The notes under the pieces: generated by a model
Told to the model about the DNA's origin: nothing
Databases searched by the model: none
Seen by the model: the letters and a program-made list of their open reading frames with translations, nothing else
Made by a program: the position numbers and the translations under genes
In this document: in pieces, positions 14,383 through 52,037 of the stretch
Layout of the letters: every line of letters starts with the position of its first letter
How positions within the stretch are numbered: the first letter of the stretch is position 1
NCBI GenBank assembly: GCA_014871385.1
Contig: CM026424.1
Location: 14,288,892 to 14,352,891, forward strand
Direction: 5' to 3'
Length of the DNA stretch: 64,000 nt
Source: Ceratodon purpureus
Taxonomy: Eukaryota > Streptophyta > Bryopsida > Pseudoditrichales > Ditrichaceae

Positions 14383-14428
14383 TTACAAAACGAATACTAA
14401 AAATAGATACAAAAGAAAGATTTGAGTG

Positions 14429-14520
14429 TTGCTAATGCACATTCTTTAGAGTTGCTAATGCACATTCTTTAGAGTCGCTAATGCACATTCTTTAGAGTCG
14501 CTAATGCACATTCTTTAGAG
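14429..14520. repeat. 23-bp tandem repeat, four copies (left arm)
   Basis: Four direct copies of ttgctaatgcacattctttagag (t/c variation at the second base), without spacers. It lies just inside the outer boundary of the palindrome and is mirrored at 51657-51749. Confidence 0.9.
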
Positions 14521-15384
14521 TAGCAACATTTGTTATTAAGTACTTCTTATTAAAGACAACTCAAGCAAAAGAACTAAAAACTCCAATGGCAAGGAGGATA
14601 ACAAAATTTATGCTTACATGTGGCCATCGATGCTAAAATCTGATAGAACATTCATACCAATTAGACGTCACTAAAAGAAGACACATAGAGCGCAAGAAAA
14701 CAAACTGCTGAACCGGGAATTGAGTGGAGACAAAGTACAACAATGCCACCTATTACTTGTACAACTGTAACAAATCTCCATGATAAAACATGAAAATATT
14801 TAAGTTCAAACGTAAACTACAGTTACCGTGACAAAGGGACGTAGATTGGAAAGTGTGTCCACAAGAGCCAGAGGGCCGAGTCCAGCTCCTCGCCCACCAC
14901 CCAAGTGTCGAGATCAGCTATATAGTGTCGAGATATGTTGTAGTGTCACCTACACCTCCAATGGTTTTTTTTTGTTTTCCCCCTTCACTTAATGGTGAAG
15001 TTATTGATCGATACTTCTTTTATGTTTATTTGTTGGTGGTGAAATTTCCTTACCACTCTATTAAAAATAAAAGGAATAATGGTTTTTATCAAGTGATCAA
15101 ACTTCTTTATCCAACCAAAAATGGTTTTGATTGAAATTGGCTATTGAACCTTCTTAACCTAAACTTCATTCCATTTTTTATGCCTAAAATGCATTTCAAC
15201 AATTTCCTTTATAAGAATGAATTGTTTGACTCTTCCACTAACAATCTCAATCATGAATGCAAATCTTTTCATGATTCTCACCCAACATGCCCGATGAAAG
15301 TGATCAATCAAAGCTTCACCAAAATTTGGAGAGCAAGCCTTTCAAGTCTTAGAGCACATATTCCATTCACTTGCTGGACTTGAT

Positions 15385-17400
15385 TTAATAAGAATCATCA
15401 TTTTGCTTGTTTTTAGCAAAATGATGCCTCAAAAACGATTTAGGACAATGATCCAAGATTTCACTATATTGCTCAAAAGGAGAAAATTTGGCAATAACTT
15501 TTGGTCCGTCCTCGACAATCAAAACCAATATTCTTTGATTGTGAACCAAAGATCTATGTTCCAAATTCAACATAATATTTGACAAAAATTATCTAAAGAC
15601 ATCAAATTTTTGATGTATTCTACATCATCTCTAACTCGTCGCAAGAAAATAAATTTCCATCTTTGACTTCTTCCATCCATAACTTTATCTTATCAAATAC
15701 CGATAAGTACTCCGTCTTTGACACATATCCACCTAGAGGTCTATAGCGGCAATCAAAACAACCACAACGCACTCCTTTCTAATTGCTTTTAAAAATGAAA
15801 TAACTAATCTTGGGTTATAAATGAAATCCAAGTCCACATGTTCCTTTACATTTATATCCAAATACCACATTCACTTCTTGAAATGGCTTTTCCATTGAAA
15901 TAAAATCTGAAACCACCACATGAAACCAATATATGATTGTCAATCACATCACTAGGAATCAAGTTAGCATGTTTGCGTTGTTTACCAAGGCTAGTTTGAG
16001 GATTAGTATGGTTCTAATGCATTTAAAAAAGAGGACCCTTCAGAAAAATTCTAGAATGATAGTCTAGTACGTCTTTGCCTCCAAACTTCTTTTTATCTAT
16101 GGGTACCAATTTTTGTTCTTAGTAAGTATATTTCCGTGGCTAGCTTCCAACTATTTTGCGACATTCTAAATGTCACCTCAAAGTTATGCTACTACAAACC
16201 AATATTGTAATAATCTTCCATCTTCACCTAAACACTATTATAGATTTTCTGTTTTATATCCAAACTATCCACCGTTGCTATTTTACAAAGCAAGATGTGT
16301 TCAATTGATGTCAGACTTGAAGATGTCAGAGCCAACCATCAGACAGACTTGGGCAGGCTTCACTTGAAACTTTCCATAATCTCATATTCCAAACTTCTGA
16401 AAGTGCACCCAACATGTAGCTAAAACTATCATCAAAGAAGCATAATCACAAAACTCAATTCTCATATCTTTGTAGGAAGTCTCACCTACACTCAACCGCT
16501 GGCTTGTAATTCGTAATAAACAATGCAATCTGTTTTTTCATTTGTTATCATCTGCATTGGAACAACCAAGACAATCTAATGGTAATCTTGCTTTCTCCAA
16601 CATTTCATCTATAATACTATGATATTCCATGTTTGTTGCAATGTCATTTAATTTTGTTGATGAAAATAAATATATAATATTGCCATCGTATAGGACAAGC
16701 ATTGCAGGATGTCTTGAAAATTTATTGTCATAGTCTTCATCAGAAAGTGACTTAGATGTATCATCACGTTTTTTACAAAATACTACAATGTGCACAACAT
16801 TAGTGCATTCACTAGCTAAAATAGAATGCCTTTTAAGAAGGATTTTCTTTTCACCTCAAAAGAATCCCCGGACACCTCCTCTAAGCATTTTGGAAATGCA
16901 TAATTTGGCCTTTTTTCTTTTAAAATGTGTTTCTTGTTCAAAACGCCATTAAGGTCCTTTATAACATAAAATAGAAGATTATCTAATGATTTTTTACCAA
17001 GTGTCTTGATTGCAATGCATTGTAAACGATTCCTACATTCTTCACATTAAGGATGAGTAAAAAGTGAATCTATGAATAAGAGCTTTCACATGATCAATAT
17101 CAACCATAAAAGATAAATATCTTCCAAAAACATTTACTCTATCAATTTCAGCGTAAATTCAAGAATCTTATAATAGCTTTCCACTAGGTTTCAGAGCTAA
17201 CAAGTTTCTTAAATTGGTTTTCCTTCAAAACTAGCTTGAGGCAGTTCTTGATAGTTGGAGTAAGATTATAAGTTGTGGAATGAGATAGCTCAAGGACCTC
17301 AAGGAGTAATGCAATTTCAACCTATACGTATTCATATTCAAAATGATCTTCTGGTAATGCGAGCGCTCCATATCAATCTCGGCTTGATGTTGGACGATAT
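15385..17400 (-). pseudogene. Decayed multi-exon gene of unknown family (left arm copy)
   Basis: On the minus strand several open segments read like protein but are broken by stops and shifts. They include ALLLEVLELSHSTTYNLTPT and CLKLVLKENQFKKLV near 17200-17340, a Cys-containing piece CRNRLQCIAIKTLGKKSLD near 17000, an 85-residue frame at 16795-16538 (HIVVFCKKRDDTSKSL...) and a 66-residue frame at 15585-15385. Spacing between the pieces suits exons. I do not recognise the family. The left arm lacks 18 bp present in the right arm near 17190. Sequence 14521-15384 outside it holds nothing recognisable. Confidence 0.4.
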
Positions 17401-17929
17401 GGCTTTTCTAAAGCTACAATATTGAAATTATCTACAACTGAGGCAAAATATTCATAAGCATCCATGAACTTGGTCAACTCAGAGCATTTTTATTCACTCG
17501 AACTCCTATACACATGCATGATAGTTGTACAAAATAATCTTCTTCACTCCTCCAACTAAGCCCACCCTTGTTGAATTTGAAGAAAACTTGTGATTCTAAT
17601 ACCAACAAGATCATCCAATGAAGGAGGCACTAGTGCAATGAGTGTACAACTACACCTGGAATTCCTAATGGTGTTCATCTATTAAAATGCTCGGGCTCTA
17701 ATTGGTTAGTAGAACTTTTTGGTGTACTTTGCTCGGTTTAAGTAGTGAACTTCTACAGTGGGAAAGAGAAACAACTCATCATGCGAATCTTGGCCAATCA
17801 GAGAGAGTCACTATTTCCAATTATGTCAGAGGGTCTACAGCATGGGGCTGCGACTGGTGAGGTAAACTGCGATTTGAAGTTCTGGGTAATCACATCATGG
17901 TGATTTTGGAGGGTTTAGATTTTTCACTT

Positions 17930-18176
17930 ACAATTCAATCCATTCAAACGGTGTAACATAGACGTGACACAACACATTCTAGTCCAAATTATGGGGCAGC
18001 TGTGGAGTTTCTTGTTGCACAAGCCCGAGAGATTGGCTTGGAAGCTCAGAGGTTGGAGTTTGTAAAGGGGATGCCTGTGGTGTTGATTACTTGGACTGGG
18101 TTGGATCCGTCTCTTCAGTCGGTGTTGCTGAACTCGCACACCAATGTGGTTCAAGCTCAGAAGGAGAAGTGTTGCT
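17930..18176 (+). pseudogene. Aminoacylase-1 (M20 peptidase family) gene fragment, left arm
   Basis: The frame ending TAA 18174-18176 encodes GAAVEFLVAQAREIGLEAQ, then LEFVKGMPVVLITWTGLDPS and LLNSHTNVVQAQKEK. This is the N-terminal part of plant and animal aminoacylase-1, a zinc-dependent hydrolase of N-acyl amino acids. The family's metal-binding HTDVV reads HTNVV here (Asp to Asn). Upstream, the expected first strand (like RFxxYLxIDT) appears as FKRCNIDVT in another frame, so a frameshift lies near 17965. No later exons were found. It is a dead fragment, possibly captured by or stranded beside the LTR-like element starting at 18404. Confidence 0.75.
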
Positions 18177-18540
18177 AAGCCATGGTATGATGATGAGAGT
18201 TACTCTGCGATGTGTTTGCAGAGAAACTCTTCGGTGTGTTTGCAAGTCTGCGATTATGTATCATCTCTGCATTGGCTCTACAAATCTTGATAGGTTTTGA
18301 TTTGCACATGCATGATCCTTTTCTAGGGTTTGAGGCTAGTTTCTGTGAATTTTTGGTGCAATTCTGGCATGTCGTGTGCTTCAAGGAGATTTAATTTTAG
18401 GAGGTATGTCACGGACGTGCCATACCGGACTTCATCCACGCCCCACGAGTTTACCGTGAGACCTTTACCGATTCCGCAACACGGAAGCTTCTCAAGAGCT
18501 TTCCCAAAGAGCGGTGGCTAAGTGTGCTTAGATGCTATTA

Positions 18541-18810
18541 GTTTCTAGAAAGTTCTACATGCTTCTACTACTTTCTAGAACCTTCCACTAGTTTCCGGAA
18601 GCTTCCACAAGCTTCCTTGTAGTTCTAGTAGTTTCCGTAAGCTTCTACAAGCTTCCTTATAGTTCTAGTAGTTTCCGTAAGCTTCTACAAGCTTCCGGAA
18701 GGTTCCATACGGATCCAATTGTTTCCGGAAGCTTCCATAAGCTTCCGGAAGGTTCCACTTGACCTTCTTAGATTCCGGAAGCTCCCATAAGCTTCCGGAA
18801 GGTCCTATGG
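18541..18810 (+). promoter_or_regulatory. Heat-shock-element array with 10-bp period (left arm)
   Basis: Cut into 27 consecutive decamers from 18541, TTC occupies positions 3-5 in 23 of them and GAA positions 8-10 in 8. This gives nTTCnnGAAnnTTCn spacing, the heat-shock factor binding pattern. Typical units are gcttccggaa and gtttctagaa. The array ends about 50 bp before a TATA box. Function is inferred from spacing, not shown. Confidence 0.7.
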
Positions 18811-18861
18811 ATGCTTCCCAAGGTCTCTAGGACCTTTCTTCGGAAGTTTCCTCTAGCCTAG

Positions 18862-18869
18862 TATAAATA
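18862..18869 (+). promoter_or_regulatory. TATA box downstream of the HSE array (left)
   Basis: tataaata, followed about 30 bp later by a CT-rich start-like region (gctcctcacactc). Mirrored at 47290-47297. Confidence 0.65.
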
Positions 18870-19077
18870 GAGAGTCGAGGGCCATTGCTCCTCACACTCT
18901 TCAACACCAATTGTACATACTCTTCCAGTTATCAATATCACTTCTAGTTTTTCCCACTTCAAGAGTTATTCAGAGTCTTGTGTGAGGAATCCCCTCACTT
19001 CTAGTCTATTCTTGTCTCCCTTTGAGGTATGCCCTCAATTTAGTCCCTTGCTCTATCTTAGACTTGCCGTCCACAAC

Positions 19078-20666
19078 AGGGAATAGGGTTGGATTACAAG
19101 GTTTGGTTCTGTAATTGGTTGACACATGATTACAATGTAGGATGGCGACAACATCATCTTTGGGAGGGGAGCTCAAGACATGAAGAGCATTGGCATGCAA
19201 TACCTGGAGGCTATTCGCCATCTGAAGTTGAGTGGTTTTCAGCCCACTCGGTCTATGCATGATGAAGAGTATGGAGGCGTTTATTGACAGGTTCATCGAC
19301 AACATCATTTCACGAAAACAATATATCAATAAGTAACCATCCGGATATAGGTAACCCGAGGCAGTAATTATGAATTCATCTATGCCAATCAACTTGACAA
19401 AAAATTGATGAAACTTCCTGTCATCCTATCGCAAGGAAGCCTGAAAATTACCATGGGTCAAACACCAGCAGGGCCCATGAACTAATTGTGCAGCAGGCCC
19501 CACGCGAGACAATGATCAAGCAGAATATAGTCCTTTAGGGGACTACTAAGCTAGGTTGCCTCAACTAGACCACCCCCCGAAAATGGCATAATCACTGCCC
19601 AATTACACCAGAAGGCCTCACCTCTATACCATTTGGAATAGGCCAAAAATAATGCAAGTTCCACTATAGAATCCGCTGTAGTTATACCCACAATCCACTA
19701 GTGAGGTGATCAGTGTCACACATCCTAACATGCCCACCTAAAGAGTATTAGGTGAGCTCGATGCAAGGATAGTTAGTAATTGATGGAGGATGGCACAATC
19801 ACTGCTTGCAACACAAAATGTGCATTACCTATTTGACGAAAAAGAATGCATAGCAAAAGAAATCCAATGTACATGATACTCTCATTCCGAAGTTTCAATG
19901 TAGTGATGATGAGATGTCGATCAAAACTCTCATTCACATGGAAGGAGAAGACCACCAAGCTAGAATTGAATACCGTAGCCTACTAGCAGCTTCGTACAAA
20001 AATAATTAAAAAAACAGAAGTCGATTCTTTTTTGGAAATTACACTTGTAGGCTGCCGAAACAAAGAAAAATTACAGTATAAGAATTCTGAAATATTCGAA
20101 AATGACAACACATGGGCCGAAAATACAAAAAAAACGAACCAAACAGTCACAAAAGTCCACATACTCCACACGAGCTCCTTGCACAATCAAAAAGTAACTA
20201 CAATACTCTACTTTGTCAAGCTCCCCACATGGTCTGTCAGCACAAACGTAGGACGCGTTCACGGCGAGCTTCCCACGAGGGTGGCATGCACCACAAACGG
20301 CATTCTATCTTCACCATATTAGAGCCTAGGGTTGCAATGTTGAGTCTCTTTTCCCTTGTCGATGGAGGTTACTGTGAAAGCGAAGGGGATGTTGCTGGGT
20401 GGGCGGAAGGACGTTGGCAGAGCGCAGGCTGGTGAGGCAGCAACAGCAGCCCTACATCTAGTGACGAGGTTAGTTCTCTTTGTGTGCTTGAAATCTCTTT
20501 CGACTTGGGCTCCTCCCCGGCTGACTCTCTTTCGTCTCGCGAAACCCCGACTGACTCTCTTACCGAGCTGTAGATTCATTCTCGTGCTCTTGTAACTGTG
20601 TTGAGGCTTTAGAGTAGATTCAGTTATGAGTTTATTTCCTCAAGTGTATAGAGATTGGGCTCTAGA
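19078..20666. other. Non-coding stretch between LTR-like block and CACTA element
   Basis: There are coding-like remnants to about 19500, then nothing recognisable. The part from about 19980 to 20666 is one of the more diverged blocks between the arms (several substitutions and a 6-bp indel relative to 45505-46180). Confidence 0.4.
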
Positions 20667-23600
20667 CACTACAACAAATCCAGCCCAATGTGACTAGATG
20701 TAAACCGGCCCATGTGACCGCGTAGTCACATCAGTCATCAGTTCAGTCAAACATCGGTCATAACAGGGTCCAGTCATGGACTAGTCACGAACTAGTCATA
20801 TACCCAGTCATTTTTTTGAGGACCTGGGTGGGAACGTCTACGGGAACGAGCCATATTTTCCCCTGCGATGTTCCCATACTCATGCATTGAGTGCTTACTA
20901 TCTGCAGTCATACTAACATAGTCATATGGTAATGGTCATAGATTCTTGTATGACTCCGTTGCGTAATGGATGCCATTAAAGTGAATGCATGTAGTCCTAA
21001 AGTCTTCAAACTTACTAATTGTAGTCATGTATTTCAATCAAATGACTCGACAAAATCTTCTACTCGTGGCCTCAATGGGTAAGTGTTGTGAAATTGGAGT
21101 ACGTCCCTAATCTTCATTTGCAGGTACATAGTAGAAAAATATATTCACATAATTACAATCACTAGATATTTAGAATACAACTCTAAAAAATGAATACCTA
21201 TTTGAATGAAAGTCACCAAATATTATGACTCCACTCTCTCTAGCTTCCTACTTGCTTTCCAGATGCATGAAAATTGCTTGTACTAATAATTATGCTATAA
21301 ATTTCCTTCGCTGACAATTGAACCATTATTAATTGCCTTCCCATATTACTTTGAGGTGTCAAGCTGATTGCCAACATAATGTAGTCGTTATGACTGTCAT
21401 ATAGACGATTTTCTTCACTTATATTGGTCATTGGTTTCTGTATGACTCAGTGTTGTATTAAAGTTGATTTAGATGACTATATGTAGTCATGTAGTCATTG
21501 TTTAAATCTGGAATAATCTTTATATAAATATGTCTAGGATTTTTTTCTACTTCGCCATAGATTTCAAGAGTTGACAAAGAAGTCATTATTGATTGCCTTC
21601 CCATACTTTTTGAAATGTGAGAGTGATTGCAAAATAACGTAGTCATGTGGACAGTTTTATTTACTAAAATTGGTAATGATTGCAAAATAACATATTCATC
21701 TAGTGAAAATCAAAAAATTATGAAGACAGAGAAATGAAATTAGAATCAACTAGTTTTTACAATATTTTGTTATTTCTAAGTCATTTAAGGTCACTATTAC
21801 TGATTTTTTGCTAAAGTCACGAAATTGAGAAATTCTATTTTTGAGAAGCGAACCTTATTTTTTCATTTGCCAGGTGACAAACGTGCTATGGTGTTACGGT
21901 ATGCATTGCCCATGTGAATAAGAGATAGAACTAATAGTACTCCACCTTAGAGGCACCTTCGGCAACCTCTAGTCAAATAGTTAATTAATTTCAAATTTTG
22001 TTGTTTGGCATCAAAAAGAGCATTTTTTTTTTTTTTTCAACTTTTCAAGAAATATATATAGTTTTATTTCAATTTCCATCTACAAATAATGAATTTTCAT
22101 AATGTTTGTTATTTTAGTGAACCACGTGTGATCACTTTGAACTTTTTTAATGGATTTGATTTTAAATTCATGTACTTGATTTCAAGATATTTCATCATTT
22201 ATCTAATTTTATTTCATGATTTTCTAACAAATAGGCTATAATATTCTTTTTTTAATCCGACATTTATATTTGGAATTATTTTTTGGCAAAGCTCCCCCTA
22301 AGGTACCATAGGTTACTAGCAGCTTTTGCACTGTTTTGCCTAAAAATTAATTGAAGTGCAAGAAGTGGTTAGGCAATTCAAAAAATAATATCTCAAAGTT
22401 GGGTAATTCTAACTTATATTTTACAATGCACTCTTCAAAACCATCACATTCCATTATCAACACTATTATTAATTTTATTTTATTTGGAGCAAATAGAGGG
22501 AAGAATTTCCAGAAAATTTATGCAGATTTGTAAATAATTATTTTATGCCTAAACTGCTAATAGCCTACGGTATGCATTATGCATTACCCCACAAAGTTAC
22601 TTTGAATGATGGTGCTGTGAATGAGAGCTTAAAGCTCTACTAACTCACTACCTCCTTCCTTCACTAAAGTCATCCATCAAACCATCATCCTCCCATCTTG
22701 GCACCCAATAAGTCAATCCTCAGGTACCCTAGAACATGAGGATTTCATTTCATTGCAATTTTTCTCTCTCCGCCTCTTGTCATTCTCCTTCTGATTTGTA
22801 CTAGCCATAGCCATGCGGAATCCCCTCAAGCAGCACACTCCGGAGTAGGAAGAAGATGGTATGCAAATGAGAGGTTGAAGCTCTGTCTTTGTAAGCTACT
22901 ACTTTGTAAGCTCTCTTTTCCATTTCGTCACTTCTGTTTTTTTGCACCTTGGTGAGGTTTAGGATAAAGCCATTCATCAAACCATCTATCAGTTCATTCT
23001 GAGGTGATCTTGAGCTCATTTTGATCATGCTTTTCATTTGTGTTTTTCGGAAATGTGATTCAGAATTAGGGTTTGGTCATTTAGGGTTTCGCTTTGAGCC
23101 GTGGCTTGTCTTCAATAGCAATCCTTGTATTGGAGCTGTACTGCTTCTGAGCTTCGAAGAAACTCGATCAGCCAGGTGATGTATAGTCATTGCTCGACAT
23201 TCAAATTAGAACTATTCGAGTTTCACGGTTGTGCTATCTGTTTTTGGCTTGATTCGTCATGGTTTGAAGTGAGTATATTTTCCAACTGTATGTTTTTTGA
23301 CGACAACAATATTTGTGTGCAGTGAAGTGGAGAGGAAGACCTATGGAACTGAGGATGTCAAGTGTGGGGGGAAGCGCACGGGCGATGGCATTCATGAACT
23401 GTGCACTAGCTTTTGTGATGGCTGCTGTGTTTTGGGGCATCGCCTCCGCAGATATTTTCCAAGAAGGTATGATTCTGCTCAATTGACGCTTCAACAATAG
23501 TTACTGTCTTTGAGCAACGGAAAGGCAATGTTACTTTAGAAATTGTTAAAGTATTCGTTTTGTCACAGGATCAATTTAAATTCTATATGTGATGATATGT

Positions 23601-24882
23601 GTTGGACTGCTGTTTGCTTGCAGAGAACGCGCTTATGTTGTTCAGAAATGGGTTTCTGAATTTAATTCAAGAAACATTGTTTTGGTTCAATGTTAGACTT
23701 CAATGATGAGACGGTTTGAAGTGGATTCAGGTTTTGAGTGGAAGCTTGATGTTGCTCTATCTGGTATATGCTTATGGAGTTGAATGCAAGTTGTTTTGTT
23801 TCATCAAATTGCTTAGGGCAGAGTGATGGTTGTTGGGTGGTTTAGTAATCTAGGATGCGTGAGTTGCAGGTCATTATTCTTTGCAGCTGGCATCATGGTG
23901 GCGGTGGCACTCGCACCTGGTGGTGTCGCCACAGCCATCACGACAATCTCTAGTACCAGCCCCTGCTCTGTACGGCGAAGCCCAGGGTATGGACATATGT
24001 GATTTTTGTTCAATTTCGGAGCATATCTTTGCTGTGTTTTTTATGAAGCTAATGAAGTCGCTTTTATTCGTATATATTTGTTATTGAACAGGATGATGGT
24101 ATTATCGGATGATTTGGCGTGTTCTTTGATGAGAGGAAATAGGAAGCCTTTGGGAACAACAAACAACACTCTCTCCGTTACTTCTGTTTTCAATTCCACA
24201 TAAGGACTCCACATAGTCATCAGATGATATAGATGAATATATGTGACTATGTGTAGTGAAGTATATATGACTCTACAGAGTCGTATTATCTCAAGTCTAT
24301 GTATGAAGCAATACAGTGACAACCACATCACTATTTTGAAACTATTTCAATATTTGTGACTATGGATAGTCACCACATCAAATAAAAACTATTTCAGTAT
24401 TTGTGACTATGGGTAGTCAATTAGATGTGACTCAAATGAGTCGTATTTTCTTTACTCAATGTATGACTCAATTTAGTCACCATCACACTACTATGCGTAG
24501 TGATAAAACCATTTATGTGTTGGCTGATACATCACTACAATTAGTCATGCCAATCAAAAGATATTTTCGTATTGGTGACTATGTAGAGTCATATATTGTT
24601 GACAATACTTAGTCACCTATACGATATTGGTGACTAAGTATAGTCAACAATAGATGACTCTAGAGAGTCATATTGTCCCAAGTCCTAGAGCAGGTCCCTA
24701 CTTGAGGTCCCAAAACACCATGGGAACGCAGTATCGGGAACAAAAAATGTCCGATGTGACCGCTAGTCAGATTGTCCGGAGCGACTGACTCAAAATGACT
24801 GGAAACAATATAAGTCACATTTTGGTTTATGCCCTATTCCAGTCATAAAACCCAGTCACATTGGGCTGGATTTGTTGTAGTG
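20667..24882. mobile_element. CACTA-type (EnSpm) DNA transposon, non-autonomous
   Basis: A 4,216-bp insertion with perfect 29-bp terminal inverted repeats starting CACTACAACAAATCC and ending GGATTTGTTGTAGTG. It is flanked by a 3-bp target duplication AGA (20664-20666 and 24883-24885). The matching place in the right palindrome arm (about 45499-45501) is an uninterrupted empty site with one AGA copy (TCT on the plus strand). Both subterminal regions (about 20690-21700 and 24190-24860) are packed with agtca/tgact words in both orientations, as expected for CACTA transposase-binding repeats. I see no transposase; the interior holds a small two-exon frame and AT-rich filler. Confidence 0.95.
23343..24002 (+). 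CDS. Small two-exon ORF carried inside the CACTA element
   Basis: Exon 1 (23343-23466) starts ATG and ends at AAG|GTATGA; exon 2 (23887-24002) follows TTTGCAG and ends TGA. The phases join (124 + 116 = 240 nt), giving 79 residues. The N-terminus has a hydrophobic core (ALAFVMAAVFWGIASA) like a signal peptide or membrane anchor. The second exon supplies another small-residue hydrophobic stretch (GIMVAVALAPGGVATA). A leader with its own possible intron precedes it, ending in GTGTGCAG before 23330. I do not recognise the protein. A captured host gene fragment is the likeliest origin, and the splice model is inference. Confidence 0.4.
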
Positions 24883-25131
24883 AGAAGATTGTTTTTGGAT
24901 TTACCGTGAAGGTGAAGCCGTCCTTTCAAATTCTAATAGCACAATGCTCGTTTTAGTACAGCTGGGACTCACTTGAATCGCATAGACTCACCTGAATCGC
25001 ATACCGAAGGGACATAGACTCACCTGAATTGCATCTACACAACTCTACACATCTTCACAACTGAACCGCATCCACTCAAGACTCATGGCTCTACACACCT
25101 TAACGGCATCTACATAAACGACTCACCTGCA

Positions 25132-31590: not shown

Positions 31591-31599
31591 TGTATGCCC

Positions 31600-38792: not shown

Positions 38793-39043
38793 CTAACTTA
38801 GAGAAGAGAAGCTGTTGGGAGGAAGCGGGCAGGCACGGGAACGCAGGGAGCGGGAACTGGCTACAGCCCGGAGCGAAGGACCTACAGCGCAACAAACGAG
38901 CGGCAGCCGAAGGCCGCACCGAGTGGGAGGCACCGAACGGGTGCGAGGAGCGGGGCCCACGGAGGAACCGGCTCGGGCCCGGCAGCCCGCGACCTGGCCC
39001 TGGCCCGCGATGGGAGGCGAAGAGAAGAGCATTTGACCCCTAA
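38793..39043 (+). promoter_or_regulatory. GC-rich promoter region of the ADP/ATP carrier (right)
   Basis: Mirror of 31340-31590: a CpG-rich block just upstream of the leader exon that ends at the GTACGT donor (39155). Confidence 0.45.
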
Positions 39044-39154
39044 CCCTGAGGCAGTGTCGTCCTCTTTTATTGCTGGTTGCTTTGCTCTGCTGCTGTGCTG
39101 TGGGAGTCTCCATCGCCGCCGCTCATTCCCCTTGCCTCGGCTCAGGGTTTGCTG

Positions 39155-40003
39155 GTACGTCCCTCCTCCCTTGCCCTTGCCGTTGCTCTGCGTTCGTCAA
39201 CGTGCTCTAGCCATCTGAATCATGTGTTTTCTTGTGGCTTCGTGTTCTAGCCATTATGATCTAGCCATCGTGTCGTGGCTGGGGTTTCGTCGTTCTAGCT
39301 TGTAGAGTTGCTGTGCCTGATTTTCTGGGGTCGGGTAACCTAGATCGGGTGCGAACTGGGAGATGGGAGTTTCGTTGCGTGGAATTTGTAGAGCACGGTG
39401 TCGTGCATTGTGTTTTGTTGGATTAGGTTGTTTCCAGGAGTGTGTGTAGAGTGTTATCGCGATGTTTAGCTTCAGATTTCTGTGGGATGGGTTAATGTGT
39501 GTCGGAGTTCTGGGTCCTAGTCGACCTGGCTAGATGCTGATATCTGTGATCGCCTCGGTCGCTCAGAGCTTTGGATGTCTTTGGGGCATGTGGTGTATGA
39601 TGGGGCACACGAGGGGCTTAGCTCTGTGTTAGCAGGGTTTGATTTGTGTGGGGACGGTCCTAGTTTCTATGTTGAATGTTCGCTCGATGGGAGATTGTTC
39701 TAGTGCGTTGAGTGCCGCATGGTTGATTTGATTACTTGAAACTTTTGTCTGCACGTGCACGGCCACTAGTTGACGCCAAAGACACTGTTGCGGAGTCTGC
39801 AAGTTCGAGAAGCAGCAGAGTTGATGGATATTTCACATCTAGGTCGGGGAATACATTTCTTGAATCCAGTACTAGAACTTGGAAACGGAACTTTTGGCAC
39901 GACGATGGATTTTTGGGTGAGTTAGGCTAGACGGTTGAGCGAATGGTAATCAGATGGGATGAGGCGAATGTGACTAACGTGGGGAATGTGTTGGTGGGAG
40001 CAG
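39155..40003 (+). other. Probable 5' UTR intron of the ADP/ATP carrier (right)
   Basis: Donor GTACGT at 39155 and acceptor ending CAG at 40003, 19 bp before the ATG at 40023. No coding content. Mirror of 30380-31228. Confidence 0.55.
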
Positions 40004-40022
40004 GAAGTGAGCATTGTCGAAG

Positions 40023-41315: not shown

Positions 41316-41583
41316 AGGGACGATGACGATGTAGAGGATAATGATGATGATGATGAAGGCGATGCTGCACGGTGGTGTCGGGGTGGCGATTTCAGGCGGA
41401 GCGGAGGGTGGTGGGGCACTTGGAGAATGGTAGCGCGGATTTTTTGGGGTGTGGGTAGTGTGACACCTCTAAATAAGCCGATTGAGGCCGCAGAGGACGG
41501 TGTTACGGGGTGCGGTGGCGTCCTCGCTTTCGTGAAATCGTTTTTTTTTTTTTTTTTTTTTGGGTTCTAATGGAGACCTAGAC

Positions 41584-41693
41584 GGTGGAAGGTGGACAAG
41601 GCTTAGTGGAGTGGAGGTTGCAGCTGTGGCACCTGAGGAAATTAGTGATGGTTTTGTCATGTAGGTTTACCTTCTGATTAATACAGTGATGAG
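41584..41693 (+). pseudogene. Ghost of an RPL8 3' end (right arm)
   Basis: ggaaggtggacaaggcttag corresponds to the end of RPL8 exon 2 and its stop. The following bases (ctgtggcacc, gatggtttt, tcatgta, tagtgatgag-like) track the 3' UTR of the RPL8 copy at 10921-11945 into its unique downstream part. The rest of the gene is absent. Confidence 0.75.
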
Positions 41694-42372
41694 ACTTATC
41701 GTCCCAGTCGATCATGATGTGATTTTGTCGCGAATGTGTGGGGGTGACCTTTGTGGTCGAGATGTGATAGAGGTTCCTCCCTAGTCTGTATGAGAGGCTT
41801 AGGAAACACAAGAAGAGTTGCACAATTGAGGTACGGTATGGGCTCGATGATATGACAAATTGTTGAAAGGCGTTGTATATCTTGAGGAAATATGAGAACG
41901 CAAGTGATGTGTGTGCAAGAATATTTCCAACAGTTTTTAGTAACAGGGATGGTGTAAAATTCCATCTTATAAGTCTAATGAAGAGGAAATAGTTTGAAGA
42001 AGCTGTAGGAGTATTGATGGTATGATTTTGGTGTCTTAGAGCTCTAAAGAACACGACATATAATTTGAAGAACTCTCGAAGATAGACTAAATATACTTTG
42101 AACTCTTGAAAGGTAGATTTGGACGATCTCTGGTCGTGCCTTCCATTCACAGCAGTTATTTTTTCATCTGAAATATTTGGAAACGTTTGAAATATTTGGA
42201 AACATTAGAATTCAAAGAATTGTTTTATTGGAATTCAGACAACAATCAGCAATTGTCATGCTTGTAGGTGGATCAATATCGTTTACATCTAATGATATAA
42301 TGAGTGGAACATGATATGTCAAAGTCTTTTCCAAATAAGGTTTTTCAAGGAGCATTCATCAATTACTTACTA

Positions 42373-42577
42373 CTCCCTTTGTTTTGAAAAGAAACCTTGG
42401 TTTCCTTTCCTGGCAGGATTAAGTACAGTGACACTGCCATTCAGGTAAAACTCAAAATTCCCAAACCTGGTGTCACCTTCCTGAGTGTAGATTCCTGGCA
42501 ATTTCCTCGTTTGAATTCCTGATGGCATACTTACGTGGTAATAATGAAACCATGGTTTCTTTGTGAAACAAAGAGAG
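42373..42577. mobile_element. Stowaway-like MITE (right arm)
   Basis: Mirror of 27806-28010, with TA duplications on both sides and ctccctttgttt / aaacaaagagag ends. Its presence in both arms dates it before the duplication (or before the last conversion). Confidence 0.75.
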
Positions 42578-42893
42578 TACCGTAGCCTACGAACAGCTTT
42601 GACATGCACCGTCGAATATTTAATTATTTTGAAAAAATGATGTTCGACACCTCCAAAATGAATTTCTTTTAAATCGATTTTTTTGGGAATTAAATAAGCA
42701 TAAGTTCGACTTTCATCCAGAATACTATTCATTTTCATTGGCCATTTTATACAATATGCATTAAAGACTAGCTGCTGCTCCTTCAATTAGCTTTCCCTAA
42801 TGTTCACTTAACTTCCATAATTTCATTCGGTGGTGAGTCTTATTGACAACTTTGGTTATGGTTTAGGGTTGAGTGTGGAGAAAGTGAGGCACT

Positions 42894-45252
42894 ATGGCGA
42901 AGCAGAAGCTTTTAAGTAGTTTGTTTACTACAGTAAGTAAAGAAGAAATGGAGGTCAATGTAGAGCGTGAGTTTGCAGCACTTAATTCGAAGTTGGAGCT
43001 GGAGAGAGCTATGAAGAAGCCTGAAGCTGAAAAGAGACCTGTAGGGAGGCCCAAGAAGGAGCTGGAGGTTGTTCTACTTCCAACAAACGTGGAGACGCCG
43101 ATCAAATCATCATCAAAGACATCAAGGAGCAGGGGAACATACATGAACTGGTTTGTGCCCTCCCTATGGGATCCTATTTTTGCAGCTGTAAGCAAGCATA
43201 GGAATTTGAGGAGTGCATTACGTTACTTGCAGCTGAAATATAGACGTCCAGGTGAAACTGTGAGTGTTTATGACAAATTAAACACAAGCACTTTAGCAGA
43301 ATGGTTCACTACCACATGAGAGTTAAAAGCAGGTACCAAACAATCTGTTTTCAAAGAAACAGCCGCTTTTACTGGAGGTGTACAAAATGCTTACATCCTA
43401 GCCAATCATCCCGAATTGGAAGAAGATATCATCACTTTGCTCAAGAGCCATCGAGACGCCGGACAACCTTTGTACGCTACAACTGCTCGAGGTATAATTA
43501 GGGAATTAATCCGCATGAGAAACCCTAACTTACTTGACTTCAACAACAAAACCGGATTTGGGGTTAGCTTGTACTGGACACGTGACTTTTTGAGAACAAA
43601 TTTGAATTGGACTTTGAGAAAAGCAACAGGCGCTGCACGAAAGCTTCCAAGCGATTGGGAGTTGAAGGGCTTACAAATGGCTCAAAGGGTAGCTTACTTG
43701 GTGAGAGCCCATTCAATACCTCCGGAGATGATGGTTAACACAGATCAGACAAGAATCCATCTGGTACCAATAGGGGGGGCCAGAACTTAGGCAGAGAAAG
43801 GATCAAAACATGTTTTGGTCCATGGCATGGAGGACAAACGGCAGATTATAGTTGCAGTATCCTCTGCAGTAGCAGGTAAACTCCTCCCATTCCAATTAAT
43901 ATTTACAGGGACCACTCAAAGATGCCTTCCTCATATGCATGTTGGACGTCAACAATGTGAAGTTGAGGGATGGCACCTAACATGCACAAGTAACCATTGG
44001 AGCAACATGGAAACATGGAAGCAATTTGTAGAATACATTCTACAACCATACAGAGAGCAACAAGTGAAGAAGATGGGTTTAGAGGAAAACTTGAAGTTGA
44101 TCTGGCTGCTGGATTGTTGGAGCGTTCACATCTCAAAAGAGTTTGTAACATGGGTGAAAATGACACATCCAGAGATCTTGCTCATTTTCGTCCCAACGAA
44201 TTGCACTAGTGTATTGTAGCCAGCAGATGTCATTTTATAGAGACCATCTAAACACAGCTTTAGGCAGCAAATTGATAGTTACACAACAGAAAGCATTGAG
44301 AAGCAGATTGGCAAAAAGGAATTGAAAGGTGTCAAATTGGACACAAAAATGACCACTTTAAAGCCACATCTTTGCTCCTGGCTCCTGCAAGCATGGGGGT
44401 ATGTAAACAAACCGAAAATGATAAGGAGAGGATGGGAAATGTGTGGTCTCAGCAGAGCATTCAACCAGGCTTTCCAAACCAGCGCCATGGATGAGCACAT
44501 GAAGAACTCTATGTTCAAGGATGAATCGACTGAAATAGAACCAAATTCAAAACATAATGATGAGGAAATTGATACAGACATCTCCATAAAAACCGTCATG
44601 GAATAGAGTCTACACGACGCTGCAGAAGTTACAACAGCAAACCAGCCAAGGGTCGCTTCACTAAAAGAACTTGCACGCAAAAGGTACGTCCTTGCCAATC
44701 CAAATAAACAATTAGGTTCAGATCTGAAATGGTTCCATACGAGTTATCGTTATTAAGCTGATTCACTTTGAATAAACTTTGTACCAAGGACATGCACTCA
44801 AACTGTACTCACAGTCATGAAAATGGTTCAAATTCAGATATAACTACTGGTATCTGCAGATCGTTAGAGCCATCACTGGAACCGTTTCATCTGAACATAG
44901 GTTCATTTCTCATTTAAACAGAGAAGAACATAATCACTGCCAAGGTGCGATGGAGATACACATGATCTCCAAAACAGTAGAGGGACCGTAAGCAACAAAA
45001 GAAAACAATAGAGGCTTCGAGATTGTACCTGAACTAAAATGTTGTCATTTGAATGTGTGGTCTTCTAGATCCCTGCATGCACGAGAAGATATTGGGCGTG
45101 AGCAAGAGGCACCAAGCAGCAAGAAAACAAGATCTGAAATCGCAAAAACAAGAGCTGAAAATTCCCAGAAGAAGAGAGCAGACAAGAGCGCGACCACACA
45201 GAAAAAGAAAGCGGACATGGGGTCGAAGTTACCGCATGCTGAGCTTGATTAA
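42894..45252 (+). pseudogene. DDE-superfamily (pogo/CENP-B-like) transposase, right arm copy
   Basis: Exon 1 is 42894-44683, intron to 45068 (GTACGT...TTCTAG), exon 2 45069-45252; phases agree and the frame has no indel. It shares the TGA and TAG stops of the left copy and adds a private TAG at 44217-44219 (Gln codon CAG in the left arm) plus an Ala-to-Thr and a Phe-to-Leu change next to it. Past the left copy's frameshift it retains the longer frame HNDEEIDTDISIKTVME, then TAG, then SLHDAAEVTTANQPRVASLK. Three catalytic acidic blocks are visible. About 657 codons with the stops counted through. Inactive. Confidence 0.8.
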
Positions 45253-47081
45253 TGCAGGTGAGTCGTTTATGTAGATGCCGTTAAGGTGTGTAGAGCCATG
45301 AGTCTTGAGTGGATGCGGTTCAGTTGTGAAGATGTGTAGAGTTGTGTAGATGCAATTCAGGTGAGTCTATGTCCCTTCGGTATGCGACTCAGGTGAGTCT
45401 ATGCGATTCAAGTGAGTCCCAGCTGTACTAAAACGAGCATTGTGCTATTAGAATTTGAAAGGACGGCTTCACCTTCACGGTAAATCCAAAAACAATCTTC
45501 TAGAGCCCAATCTCTGTACACTTGAGGAAATAAACTCATAACTGAATCTACTCTAAAGCCTCAACACAGTTACAAGAGCACGAGAATGAATCTACAGCTC
45601 GGTAAGAGAGTCAGTCGGGGTTTCGCGAGACGAAAGAGAGTCAGCCGAGGAGGAGCCCAAGTCGAAAGAGATTTCAAGCACACAAAGAAATCTAACCTCG
45701 TCACTGGATGTAGGGCTGCTGCTGCTGCCTCACCAGCCTGCGCTCTGCCAACGTCCTTCCGCCCACCCAACAACATCCCCTTTGCTTTCACAGTAACCTC
45801 CATCGACAAGGGAAAAGAGACTCAACATTGCAACCCTAGGCTCTAATATGGTGAAGATAGAATGCCGTTTGTGGTGCATGCCACCCTCGTGGGAAGCTCG
45901 GCGTGAACGCGTCCTACGTTTGTGCTGACAGACCATGTGGGGAGCTTGACAAAGTAGAGTATTGTAGTTACTTTTTGATTGTGCAAGGAGCTCGTGTGGA
46001 GTATGTGGACTTTTGTGACTGTTTGGTTCGTTTTTTTTTGTATTTTCGGCCCATGTGTTGTCATTTTCAAATATTTCTTATACTGTAATTTTTCTTTGTT
46101 TCGGCAGCCTACAAGTGTAATTTCCAAAAAAGAATCGACTTCTGTTTTTTTAATTATTTTTGTACGAAGCTGCTAGTAGGCTACGGTATTCAATTCTAGC
46201 TTGGTGGTCTTCTCCTTCCATGTGAATGAGAGTTTTGATCGACATCTCATCATCACTACATTGAAACTTCGGAATGAGAGTATCATGTACATTGGATTTC
46301 TTTTGCTATGCATTCTTTTTCGTCAAATAGGTAATGCACATTTTGTGTTGCAAGCAGTGTTTGTGCCATCCTCCATCAATTACTAACTATCCTTGCATCG
46401 AGCTCACCTAATACTCTTTAGGTGGGCATGTTAGGATGTGTGACACTGATCACCTCACTAGTGGATTGTGGGTATAACTACAGCGGATTCTATAGTGGAA
46501 CTTGCATTATTTTTGGCCTATTCCAAATGGTATAGAGGTGAGGCCTTCTGGTGTAATTGGGCAGTGATTATGCCATTTTCGGGGGGTGGTCTAGTTGAGG
46601 CAACCTAGCTTAGTGGTCCCCTAAAGGACTATATTCTGCTTGATCATTGTCTCGCGTGGGGCCTGCTGCACAATTAGTTCATAGGCCCTGCTGGTGTTTG
46701 TCCCATGGTAATTTTCAGGCTTCGTTGCGATAGGATGACAGGAAGTTTCATCAATTTTTTGTCAAGTTGATTGGCATAGATGAATTCATAATTACTGCCT
46801 CGGGTTACCTATACCCGGATGGTTACTTATTGATATATTGTTTTCGTGAAATGATGTTGTCGATGAACCTGTCAATAAACGCCTCCATACTCTTCATCAT
46901 GCATAGACCGAGTGGGCTGAAAACCACTCAACTTCAGATGGCGAATAGCCTCCAGGTATTGCATGCCAACGCTCTTCATGTCTTGAGCTCCCCTCCCAAA
47001 GATGATGTTGTCGCCATCCTACATTGTAATCATGTGTCAACCAATTACAGAACCAAACCTTGTAATCCAACCCTATTCCCT
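45253..47081. other. Non-coding segment of the right arm including the CACTA empty site
   Basis: Mirror of 19078-20666 plus 24883-25131. The pre-insertion site lies at 45499-45501 (tct). Divergence from the left arm is higher here (45,500-46,180) than nearer the centre. No recognisable gene. Confidence 0.5.
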
Positions 47082-47289
47082 GTTGTGGACGGCAAGTCTA
47101 AGATAGAGCAAGGGACTAAATTGAGGGCATACCTCAAAGGGAGACAAGAATAGACTAGAAGTGAGGGGATTCCTCACACAAGACTCTGAATAACTCTTGA
47201 AGTGGGAAAAACTAGAAGTGATATTGATAACTGGAAGAGTATGTACAATTGGTGTTGAAGAGTGTGAGGAGCAATGGCCCTCGACTCTC

Positions 47290-47297
47290 TATTTATA
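47290..47297 (-). promoter_or_regulatory. TATA box downstream of the HSE array (right)
   Basis: tatttata on the plus strand, i.e. TATAAATA on the minus strand, mirroring 18862-18869. Confidence 0.65.
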
Positions 47298-47348
47298 CTA
47301 GGCTAGAGGAAACTTCCGAAGAAAGGTCCTAGAGACCTTGGGAAGCAT

Positions 47349-47618
47349 CCATAGGACCTTCCGGAAGCTTATGGGAGCTTCCGGAATCTAAGAAGGTCAA
47401 GTGGAACCTTCCGGAAGCTTATGGAAGCTTCCGGAAACAATTGGATCCGTATGGAACCTTCCGGAAGCTTGTAGAAGCTTACGGAAACTACTAGAACTAT
47501 AAGGAAGCTTGTAGAAGCTTACGGAAACTACTAGAACTACAAGGAAGCTTGTGGAAGCTTCCGGAAACTAGTGGAAGGTTCTAGAAAGTAGTAGAAGCAT
47601 GTAGAACTTTCTAGAAAC
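47349..47618 (-). promoter_or_regulatory. Heat-shock-element array with 10-bp period (right arm)
   Basis: Mirror of 18541-18810. The array length is unchanged between arms despite its repetitive nature. Confidence 0.7.
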
Positions 47619-47982
47619 TAATAGCATCTAAGCACACTTAGCCACCGCTCTTTGGGAAAGCTCTTGAGAAGCTTCCGTGTTGCGGAATCGGTAAAGGTCT
47701 CACGGTAAACTCGTGGGGCGTGGATGAAGTCCGGTATGGCACGTCCGTGACATACCTCCTAAAATTAAATCTCCTTGAAGCACACGACATGCCAGAATTG
47801 CACCAAAAATTCACAGAAACTAGCCTCAAACCCTAGAAAAGGATCATGCATGTGCAAATCAAAACCTATCAAGATTTGTAGAGCCAATGCAGAGATGATA
47901 CATAATCGCAGACTTGCAAACACACCGAAGAGTTTCTCTGCAAACACATCGCAGAGTAACTCTCATCATCATACCATGGCTT

Positions 47983-48229
47983 AGCAACACTTCTCCTTCT
48001 GAGCTTGAACCACATTGGTGTGCGAGTTCAGCAACACCGACTGAAGAGACGGATCCAACCCAGTCCAAGTAATCAACACCACAGGCATCCCCTTTACAAA
48101 CTCCAACCTCTGAGCTTCCAAGCCAATCTCTCGGGCTTGTGCAACAAGAAACTCCACAGCTGCCCCATAATTTGGACTAGAATGTGTTGTGTCACGTCTA
48201 TGTTACACCGTTTGAATGGATTGAATTGT
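47983..48229 (-). pseudogene. Aminoacylase-1 (M20 peptidase family) gene fragment, right arm
   Basis: Mirror of 17930-18176, with the same frameshift, HTNVV substitution and lack of further exons. The lesions therefore predate the duplication or have been copied between arms. Confidence 0.7.
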
Positions 48230-48779
48230 AAGTGAAAAATCTAAACCCTCCAAAATCACCATGATGTGATTACCCAGAACTTCAAATCGCAGTTTACCTC
48301 ACCAGTCGCAGCCCCATGCTGTAGACCCTCTGACATAATTGGAAATAGTGACTCTCTCTGATTGGCCAAGATTCGCATGATGAGTTGTTTCTCTTTCCCA
48401 CTGTAGAAGTTCACTACTTAAACTGAGCAAAGTACACCAAAAAGTTCTACTAACCAATTAGAGCCCGAGCATTTTAATAGATGAACACCATTAGGAATTC
48501 CAGGTGTAGTTGTACACTCATTGCACTAGTGCCTCCTTCATTGGATGATCTTGTTGGTATTAGAATCACAAGTTTTCTTCAAATTCAACAAGGGTGGGCT
48601 TAGTTGGAGGAGTGAAGAAGATTATTTTGTACAACTATCATGCATGTGTATAGGAGTTCGAGTGAATAAAAATGCTCTGAGTTGACCAAGTTCATGGATG
48701 CTTATGAATATTTTGCCTCAGTTGTAGATAATTTCAATATTGTAGCTTTAGAAAAGCCATATCGTCCAACATCAAGCCG

Positions 48780-50792
48780 AGATTGATATGGAGCGCTCGC
48801 ATTACCAGAAGATCATTTTGAATATGAATACGTATAGGTTGAAATTGCATTACTCCTTGAGGTCCTTGAGCTATCTCATTCCACAACTTATAATCTTACT
48901 CCAACTATCAAGAACTGCCTCAAGCTAGTTTTGAAGGAAAACCAATTTAAGAAACTTGTTAGCTCTTAGAAGAATACTCTGAAACCTAGTGGAAAGCTAT
49001 TATAAGATTCTTGAATTTACGCTGAAATTGATAGAGTAAATGTTTTTGGAAGATATTTATCTTTCTTTTATGGTTGACATTGATCATGTGAAAGCTCTTA
49101 TTCATAGATTCACTTTTTACTCATCCTTAATGTGAAGAATGTAGGAATCGTTTACAATGCATTGCAATCAAGACACTTGGTAAAAAATCATTAGATAATC
49201 TTCTATTTTATGTTATAAAGGACCTTAATGGCGTTTTGAACAAGAAACACATTTTAAAAGAAAAAAGGCCAAATTATGCATTTCCAAAATGCTTAGAGGA
49301 GGTGTCCGGGGATTCTTTTGAGGTGAAAAGAAAATCCTTCTTAAAAGGCATTCTATTTTAGCTAGTGAATGCACTAATGTTGTGCACATTGTAGTATTTT
49401 GTAAAAAACGTGATGATACATCTAAGTCACTTTCTGATGAAGACTATGACAATAAATTTTCAAGACATCCTGCAATGCTTGTCCTATACGATGGCAATAT
49501 TATATATTTATTTTCATCAACAAAATTAAATGACATTGCAACAAACATGGAATATCATAGTATTATAGATGAAATGTTGGAGAAAGCAAGATTACCATTA
49601 GATTGTCTTGGTTGTTCCAATGCAGATGATAACAAATGAAAAAACAGATTGCATTGTTTATTACGAATTACAAGCCAGCGGTTGAGTGTAGGTGAGACTT
49701 CCTACAAAGATATGAGAATTGAGTTTTGTGATTATGCTTCTTTGATGATAGTTTTAGCTACATGTTGGGTGCACTTTCAGAAGTTTGGAATATGAGATTA
49801 TGGAAAGTTTCAAGTGAAGCCTGCCCAAGTCTGTCTGATGGTTGGCTCTGACATCTTCAAGTCTGACATCAATTGAACACATCTTGCTTTGTAAAATAGC
49901 AACGGTGGATAGTTTGGATATAAAACAGAAAATCTATAATAGTGTTTAGGTGAAGATGGAAGATTATTACAATATTGGTTTGTAGTAGCATAACTTTGAG
50001 GTGACATTTAGAATGTCGCAAAATAGTTGGAAGCTAGCCACGGAAATATACTTACTAAGAACAAAAATTGGTACCCATAGATAAAAAGAAGTTTGGAGGC
50101 AAAGACGTACTAGACTATCATTCTAGAATTTTTCTGAAGGGTCCTCTCTTTTAAATGCATTAGAACCATACTAATCCTCAAACTAGCCTTGGTAAACAAC
50201 GCAAACATGCTAATTTGATTCCTAGTGATGTGATTGACAATCATATATTGGTTTCATGTGGTGGTTTCAGATTTTATTTCAATGGAAAAGCCATTTCAAG
50301 AAGTGAATGTGGTATTTGGATATAAATGTAAAGGAACATGTGGACTTGGATTTCATTTATAACCCAAGATTAGTTATTTCATTTTTAAAAGCAATTAGAA
50401 AGGAGTGCGTTGTGGTTGTTTTGATTGCCGCTATAGACCTCTAGGTGGATATGTGTCAAAGACGGAGTACTTATCGGTATTTGATAAGATAAAGTTATGG
50501 ATGGAAGAAGTCAAAGATGGAAATTTATTTTCTTGCGACGAGTTAGAGATGATGTAGAATACATCAAAAATTTGATGTCTTTAGATAATTTTTGTCAAAT
50601 ATTATGTTGAATTTGGAACATAGATCTTTGGTTCACAATCAAAGAATATTGGTTTTGATTGTCGAGGACGGACCAAAAGTTATTGCCAAATTTTCTCCTT
50701 TTGAGCAATATAGTGAAATCTTGGATCATTGTCCTAAATCGTTTTTGAGGCATCATTTTGCTAAAAACAAGCAAAATGATGATTCTTATTAA
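48780..50792 (+). pseudogene. Decayed multi-exon gene of unknown family (right arm copy)
   Basis: Mirror of 15385-17400. Pieces in order: ALLLEVLELSHSTT near 48850-48950; EIDRVNVFGRYLSFMVDIDH near 49020-49090; CRNRLQCIAIKTLGKKSLD near 49140-49200; HIVVFCKKRDDTSKSLSDED at 49385-49639; HILVSCGGFRFYFNGKAIS near 50240-50300; a Cys-containing CFDCRYRPLGGYVSKTEY near 50420-50480; and NIMLNLEHRSLVHNQRILVL at 50595-50792. They are separated by stops and frame changes. It keeps 18 bp near 48970 that the left copy lacks. Family unknown. 48230-48779 and 50793-51656 hold nothing recognisable. Confidence 0.4.
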
Positions 50793-51656
50793 ATCAAGTC
50801 CAGCAAGTGAATGGAATATGTGCTCTAAGACTTGAAAGGCTTGCTCTCCAAATTTTGGTGAAGCTTTGATTGATCACTTTCATCGGGCATGTTGGGTGAG
50901 AATCATGAAAAGATTTGCATTCATGATTGAGATTGTTAGTGGAAGAGTCAAACAATTCATTCTTATAAAGGAAATTGTTGAAATGCATTTTAGGCATAAA
51001 AAATGGAATGAAGTTTAGGTTAAGAAGGTTCAATAGCCAATTTCAATCAAAACCATTTTTGGTTGGATAAAGAAGTTTGATCACTTGATAAAAACCATTA
51101 TTCCTTTTATTTTTAATAGAGTGGTAAGGAAATTTCACCACCAACAAATAAACATAAAAGAAGTATCGATCAATAACTTCACCATTAAGTGAAGGGGGAA
51201 AACAAAAAAAAAACCATTGGAGGTGTAGGTGACACTACAACATATCTCGACACTATATAGTTGATCTCGACACTTGGGTGGTGGGCGAGGAGCTGGACTC
51301 GGCCCTCTGGCTCTTGTGGACACACTTTCCAATCTACGTCCCTTTGTCACGGTAACTGTAGTTTACGTTTGAACTTAAATATTTTCATGTTTTATCATGG
51401 AGATTTGTTACAGTTGTACAAGTAATAGGTGGCATTGTTGTACTTTGTCTCCACTCAATTCCCGGTTCAGCAGTTTGTTTTCTTGCGCTCTATGTGTCTT
51501 CTTTTAGTGACGTCTAATTGGTATGAATGTTCTATCAGATTTTAGCATCGATGGCCACATGTAAGCATAAATTTTGTTATCCTCCTTGCCATTGGAGTTT
51601 TTAGTTCTTTTGCTTGAGTTGTCTTTAATAAGAAGTACTTAATAACAAATGTTGCT

Positions 51657-51749
51657 ACTCTAAAGAATGTGCATTAGCGACTCTAAAGAATGTGCATTAG
51701 CGACTCTAAAGAATGTGCATTAGCAACTCTAAAGAATGTGCATTAGCAA
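51657..51749. repeat. 23-bp tandem repeat, four copies (right arm)
   Basis: Mirror of 14429-14520 (ctctaaagaatgtgcattag units), about 45 bp inside the right palindrome boundary. Confidence 0.9.
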
Positions 51750-52037
51750 CACTCAAATCTTTTTTTTGTATCTATTTTTAGTGTTTGTTTTGTAATCTAT
51801 TTTGTGGTCGTGATCATGATGTTTTGAGAAGGAGAATGTACGCGCTGGGAGATAGTGGGCGTCCCCGTAGGTTTTTTTGGCGTGCGGAACTGTGCGGAGG
51901 GGCGGAGGTTTCACTGATTTCTGGAAGTGGCGTGTTGGGAAGGTGGGCAAAGTCGGCGGTTCCGCTCATGAGAGTGTGAGGTTAGGATCGTGGGCTTGTT
52001 GTTGGTCGTGGGACGAGAGCAACATTGGTTTAGGGTC

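Follow-up and report, generated by a model that had tools for sequence, protein, structure and literature searches.

A 37-kb palindrome with twin ADP/ATP carrier genes and a conversion-like mosaic of arm identity in probable moss DNA

Introduction

Palindromes with long, closely similar arms have been described in willow and on the human Y chromosome, and inverted copies about a midpoint are known both as chromosomal rearrangements and as sequencing artefacts. Each of these resembles in some respects the structure reported here, a 37-kb palindrome found in a 64,000-nucleotide stretch of DNA (the window), whose arms are separated by only 18 bp and each carry a gene for an ADP/ATP carrier. On balance, it is in our view probably a genuine inverted duplication in the nuclear genome of a moss, its arms homogenised by arm-to-arm gene conversion.

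The willow palindromes W.P1 and W.P2 (Salix purpurea) share with this locus a plant host, arms of about 20 kb that are on average more than 99% alike, indels between the arms, and signs of conversion confined to part of an arm (PMC7023750). They lie in a sex-determining region and hold genes of floral-biased expression, whereas this locus holds a housekeeping gene, that of a mitochondrial carrier; the W.P1 spacer is given on the kilobase scale (2.6 kb in the text of that paper, 3.6 kb in its table), as against 18 bp here. Palindromes of the human Y chromosome, such as P6, likewise have inverted arms homogenised by conversion in kilobase tracts, on a chromosome without a recombining partner (PMC3723533). 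Described for P6 are arms of about 100 kb, a spacer of about 46 kb and GC-biased conversion (PMC3723533), whereas no GC bias is seen in the arm differences here. The likeness to Y-type palindromes drawn in a preliminary description of this DNA holds for the mode of evolution, with near-identical arms and a conversion-like mosaic, and nothing shows sex linkage; the carrier, as recognised from its sequence, speaks against rather than for a sex-chromosome palindrome.

In the fold-back inverted duplications of human and yeast, the inverted copies face each other across a spacer that is not itself duplicated and that has short inverted homology at its ends (PMC3907307, PMC7467729); the 18 bp between AGCT and AGCT may be a spacer of this kind. 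The 21 sequenced human spacers measure at least 766 bp and belong to terminal rearrangements of patients (PMC3907307), whereas the present locus would be interstitial and established. Artefactual fold-back reads, too, run from a midpoint back through an inverted copy, with few or no bases in between (PMC12870357, PMC13265396); unlike them, the arms here differ from each other and are bordered by unrelated flanks. Among the matches listed for literature on palindromes, inverted gene pairs and conversion in moss or Physcomitrella, none described such a moss structure by its title or the opening of its abstract.

Overall organization of the palindrome

Self-BLASTN of the window and arm-to-arm alignment both reveal a 37-kb inverted repeat with the following parts:

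14383–35182, plus strand: left arm, 20,800 bp, with a 4,219-bp insertion (self-BLASTN, arm alignment)
35201–51795, minus strand: right arm, 16,595 bp, the left-arm sequence in inverted orientation and lacking the insertion (self-BLASTN, arm alignment)
35183–35200, no strand: 18-bp spacer TGCGTAGGGGGTTTTCGT, with AGCT at each side (sequence, fold of the centre)

The arms, their lengths and the spacer are as the preliminary description had given them. Two inverted matches were returned by self-BLASTN, one self-palindromic (24883–45501, 99.78% identity) and one joining 14379–20666 to 51800–45499 (99.16%); in the palindrome core, paired coordinates sum to 70383. Most of the gap in length between the arms is accounted for by the one insertion (20664–24882), which is confined to the left arm. 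The palindrome is not a product of chance, because of its length alone, and its innermost 98 bases fold at z = −15.4 relative to 200 shuffles. Beyond its ends, the flanks (1–14382 and 51796–64000) have no BLASTN match to each other at E 1e-3 and word size 7.

Two kinds of short repeat occur in both arms. A 23-bp unit is repeated four times just within each outer edge (14431–14521 and 51657–51747), and an imperfect tandem array with units of 10, 20, 40 and 50 bp and TTCCGGAAGCTTCC-like motifs, partly self-complementary, lies at 18553–18803 and 47356–47606. A single giant transposon with the two arms as its terminal inverted repeats is not supported: at the edges (14383 and 51795), which were read by eye, neither a target duplication nor a known terminus was recognised.

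The only intact gene recognised within the arms is the ADP/ATP carrier, present in two copies and accompanied by a transposase remnant:

29068–30360, minus strand: complete ADP/ATP carrier (ANT), left copy, exons 30360–29491 and 29364–29068 (Pfam, translation, inspection)
40023–41315, plus strand: complete ADP/ATP carrier, right copy, identical, at mirror coordinates (sum 70383; arm alignment, translation)
25948–26511, minus strand: DDE_1-type transposase remnant of the left arm, its frame broken by stops (Pfam PF03184, open reading frame list)

The left carrier copy matches Mito_carr at 1.3e-63 in a read-through frame, its single intron being placed by inspection. Both copies begin about 4.8 kb from the palindrome centre and are transcribed outward. 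Alignment and translation thus bear out the duplicated carrier of the preliminary description, complete in both arms, whereas the identical decayed cargo claimed there is borne out in part, by the one transposase remnant with in-frame stops and a sub-threshold Peptidase_M20 match in the outer arm (19.6 bits against a cut-off of 24.6). The outer arm yielded no Pfam domain above threshold. A PDB sequence search with an open reading frame antisense to the carrier gave no match.

A CACTA-type insertion in one arm

Interrupting the left arm only is a mobile element with well-defined boundaries:

20664–24882, plus strand: left-arm-only insertion of 4,219 bp, consisting of a CACTA-type element (20667–24882) and one copy of its AGA target duplication (20664–20666) (empty site, ends, terminal inverted repeat)

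The element starts with CACTACAACAAATCCAGCCC and finishes with GGGCTGGATTTGTTGTAGTG, has a perfect 29-bp terminal inverted repeat (BLASTN), and is bordered on both sides by the 3-bp target duplication AGA; the right arm keeps the uninterrupted site, CTCTAGAAGATT. CACTA…TAGTG ends, a 3-bp target duplication and a terminal inverted repeat are features of the CACTA family, and the insert has all of them. No Pfam domain was found in the insertion in six frames, its own transposase included, and it is therefore taken as a non-autonomous CACTA-type element. Part of it (21707–21862) is about 70% similar to 59317–59167 in the right flank, perhaps a remnant of a related element.

The insertion is a genuine transposition event. 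Given the target duplication and the clean empty site, two distinct copies of the surrounding sequence must have existed before it took place. As the element entered one arm after duplication, one molecule read twice cannot explain the whole palindrome. In agreement with the preliminary description, a simple one-molecule fold-back is rejected, the arms differing by this insertion with its target duplication, by small indels and by substitutions.

Mosaic of identity between the arms

With the insertion left out, the arms differ by 40 substitutions over 16,581 left-arm positions (29 transitions and 11 transversions) and by six small indels (1, 4, 14, 7, 1 and 1 bp), three of them in the outer zone and three in a diverged island. 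They are at least 99% identical over kilobases and form a mosaic of identical and diverged stretches, both as expected of a gene-converted palindrome. Four zones can be distinguished, with 3/34, 5/4,772, 32/2,780 (around the insertion) and 0/8,995 substitutions from outer to inner, the most distinctive stretches being:

14383–14416, plus strand: outer arm edge, 3 substitutions in 34 bp, counterpart 51762–51795 (arm alignment)
19189–26187, plus strand: diverged island on both sides of the insertion, with 32 substitutions over 2,780 positions of the left arm (arm differences)
26188–35182, plus strand: identical core, left side, 8,995 bp without a difference from 35201–44195 (arm alignment)
35201–44195, minus strand: identical core, right side (arm alignment)

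The difference-free core, which contains the right carrier copy (40023–41315), was absent from the preliminary description. None of 20,000 random placements of the differences yields a run as long, and the absence of differences has P = 2e-21 at the pooled rate outside the core and P = 8e-5 at the low rate of the outer zone. Core divergence has a 95% upper bound of 0.033%, about 35 times below the island. The island is equally diverged on either side of the insertion, with 17/1,475 substitutions on its outer side and 15/1,305 on its inner side (1.15% each). At the outer edge, three substitutions in 34 bp are an excess relative to the neighbouring outer zone (P = 7e-6) and to the island (P = 0.007). 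Twice the log-likelihood difference between the four zones and a uniform rate is 113.8, a descriptive value, as the zones were drawn after the differences were seen.

Purifying selection was considered as a cause of the identical core and rejected: carrier coding sequence makes up about 1.2 of its 9.0 kb, and identity spans intergenic DNA and part of the transposase remnant. The core boundary, at 26188, falls within that remnant.

A second inverted repeat with RPL8 genes

In the left flank of the palindrome is a second, smaller inverted repeat, also beyond the preliminary description (7324–9081 / 10242–11999), with two head-to-head RPL8 genes separated by a 1,160-bp spacer:

7324–9081, minus strand: left arm of the RPL8 repeat, complete RPL8/uL2 gene, coding sequence 8402 to 7378, one intron by inspection (self-BLASTN)
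10242–11999, plus strand: right arm of the RPL8 repeat, complete RPL8/uL2 gene, coding sequence 10921 to 11945, divergently transcribed from its twin (self-BLASTN)

These arms differ at six of 1,758 offsets (4, 14, 37, 45, 50 and 1746), the first five lying beyond the stop codon at the outer edge and the sixth at the inner edge. Between them runs an identical stretch of 1,695 bp covering coding sequence, intron and upstream DNA, and none of 100,000 permutations gave a run as long. Gene conversion between paralogs leaves this pattern of an identical interior with decayed edges, its tracts being unable to extend as far as homology does. Since the RPL8 pair has the same edge-and-core pattern as the palindrome, the process would not be peculiar to one locus.

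Downstream of the ADP/ATP carrier there appears to be an old fragment of RPL8. The tail of the RPL8 gene (last codons and 3′ region, 11924–12035) is 75% similar to 28798–28690, about 270 bp downstream of the carrier and in the same sense, and the other RPL8 copy (7322–7399) matches the same site at 80%.

Placement of the host

The plant context assumed in the preliminary description can be given more exactly: trees of the ADP/ATP carrier point to a moss. Among the best 120 of 8,000 scored homologues, the best-scoring named relatives are mostly bryophytes. A first tree (the query and 32 of the 120) groups it with Ceratodon purpureus at a support of 100/99, within a clade with Sphagnum at 99/97; a second (the query and 21 of the 120) again gives a moss clade, with a lower support of 93/89 that is under the tool's own mark. 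At odds with the bryophyte picture is a match labelled Penicillium chrysogenum (P0007, 79% over 65% of the query), which was excluded from both trees. The RPL8 search was uninformative on placement, naming no moss among the best 120 of 7,456 matches and placing a JGI protein (96%) and a fern (89%) at the top.

Moss tissue sequenced for genomes is normally the haploid gametophyte, in which every chromosome is without a recombining partner. Such a sample therefore has no second haplotype to mis-join, unless the plant was polyploid or the sample mixed.

Origin and maintenance of the palindrome

The real, conversion-homogenised duplication proposed above could have arisen and been maintained as follows. 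A broken or stalled 3′ end may have folded back at the inverted microhomology AGCT/AGCT, leaving an 18-bp loop, and outward copying would have produced two head-to-head ADP/ATP carrier loci. Microhomology of this kind is documented at human fold-back duplications, which have a spacer and 2–8 bp of inverted microhomology at 13 junctions (PMC3907307), and hairpin loops of a median 36 nt are reported for yeast fold-backs with normal MRE11 and SAE2 (PMC7467729). The AGCT flanking the spacer is also the end of each arm, and primer and copy can be told apart only with the unduplicated sequence. The CACTA-type element, as its empty site attests, then entered one arm only, and substitutions and small indels built up. 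Homologous recombination between the arms would repeatedly have overwritten one with the other, completely in the inner 9 kb and nearly so in the outer 4.8 kb, while being blocked for about 1.3–1.5 kb on each side of the 4.2-kb heterology and failing at the extreme edge of the arms, beyond which there is no homology. The diverged island would centre on the insertion because a heterology of this size should halt nearby conversion tracts. Conversion over such lengths is reasonable, as the tracts inferred for a human Y palindrome have a mean length of no less than 2,068 bp and may be longer than 9 kb (PMC3723533). For Physcomitrella, papers have discussed how often breaks are repaired by homologous recombination, at a high rate, and the likely conversion among its tandem genes (PMC3729371, PMC3045890).

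Several considerations weigh against this explanation. Together, the identical core and spacer form a symmetric block of 18,008 bp, as a single long read folded back on itself would leave. Where 9 kb are mirrored perfectly across only 18 bp, cruciform extrusion and cleavage are to be expected, as is loss of the perfect centre with age, and some engineered palindromes are reported to be unstable in yeast (PMC7467729). The arm differences, counted without regard to direction, show no GC bias (17 versus 16); such a bias, seen in human P6, is not universal in conversion. Patchy coalescence of haplotypes could yield a similar mosaic, in which an insertion would more likely be seen where coalescence is old. 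Both the reality of the palindrome and its conversion are read from the pattern of differences alone.

An assembly artefact has to be taken seriously as an alternative, although we hold it to be somewhat doubtful. It would require a fold-back chimeric read at the centre that joined two near-identical loci tail to tail, these being dispersed paralogs or, in a sample that was diploid or mixed, alleles. The outer differences would then be allelic or paralogous, and the core would be either one molecule read twice or a stretch identical in both loci. The core fits this well, being symmetrical and about as long as a sequencing read (8,995 bp on each side): a second half that copies the first throughout, as in a fold-back read, is found for these inner 8,995 bp and not for the palindrome as a whole. 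Such reads are common in some libraries, at about 0.55–0.6% of genomic Oxford Nanopore Technologies (ONT) reads in PMC12870357, which also cites 1–4%, and up to 20–30% in tumour data; about one-third of tardigrade mitochondrial reads were fold-backs after multiple displacement amplification (PMC13265396). Fold-back reads with nothing or about 2 kb between their halves are described (PMC12870357), and the spacers of both the palindrome and the RPL8 pair are compatible with this. PacBio HiFi data, by contrast, contained virtually no fold-back reads (three PacBio samples in all; PMC12870357), and noisy reads would need polishing, which should restore locus-specific differences in the core unless the loci are identical there. 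The artefact also leaves the excess divergence at the outer edge and the repetition of the edge-and-core pattern in the RPL8 pair to be explained, and the unrelated flanks call for an extra structural difference exactly at the arm ends. The haploidy of moss gametophytes argues against alleles as the source of the two loci.

A plain inverted join of two alleles, which the preliminary description had named as the main rival, is for these last reasons weaker than claimed there and is disfavoured, the flanks being unrelated by BLASTN and the host apparently a moss. Allelism of the flanks would go unrecognised if the haplotypes had a large structural difference at the arm ends, and a join of the same sort could arise in a diploid or mixed sample with such a difference or between paralogous loci that are nearly identical. 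Quite improbable in our view is a palindrome formed in two steps without ongoing conversion, in which an older inverted or dispersed duplication, now diverged by about 1% in the outer arms, was followed by a recent fold-back, from which break-induced copying renewed only the inner 9 kb before connecting with the older copy. This would account for the abrupt start of identity at 26188 and for the intact 18-bp centre, which is expected to be lost in an old palindrome. It does not explain the second zone of low divergence outside the island (5/4,772), why the island has the insertion at its centre, or the RPL8 pair.

Other features of the flanks

The Pfam scans covered 7301–12000 in two of six frames and 51796–55999 in its long open reading frames. 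The right flank contains a piggyBac-type transposase (54273–55805, perhaps from 52636) with DDE_Tnp_1_7 matches of 1.3e-29 and 1.2e-23; it consists of two open reading frames in one frame, and the in-frame stop between them may be intronic. TTAA-flanked piggyBac terminal repeats were sought around it, and the one pair obtained, with 10/14 matches, was unconvincing. In the left flank, an AP2-domain-like stretch on the minus strand (3077–3250) scores 28.7 bits, short of the Pfam cut-off of 33.3, and is possibly a decayed gene. No tRNA was found in the window, nor any Rfam family at gathering threshold.

Implications

Should the palindrome be an artefact, it would be a useful example of a fold-back join that easily escapes notice, since its outer arms hold genuine differences. 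If real and homogenised by conversion, it would mean that two housekeeping genes are each maintained as identical, divergently transcribed twins. The fullest form of this explanation, to which we subscribe only tentatively, is that a moss nuclear genome keeps its ADP/ATP carrier and RPL8 genes as divergent twins in continuously homogenised palindromes, one of them 37 kb long and nearly without a spacer, which living cells would tolerate and in which a transposon insertion would visibly protect the adjacent sequence from conversion.

Conversion-maintained palindromes would then extend beyond the sex chromosomes of willow and human to a housekeeping locus, in plants noted for the efficiency of their homologous recombination. 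The locus would also offer a natural test of how a near-spacerless palindrome survives replication, and of how far a large heterology shields its neighbourhood from gene conversion.

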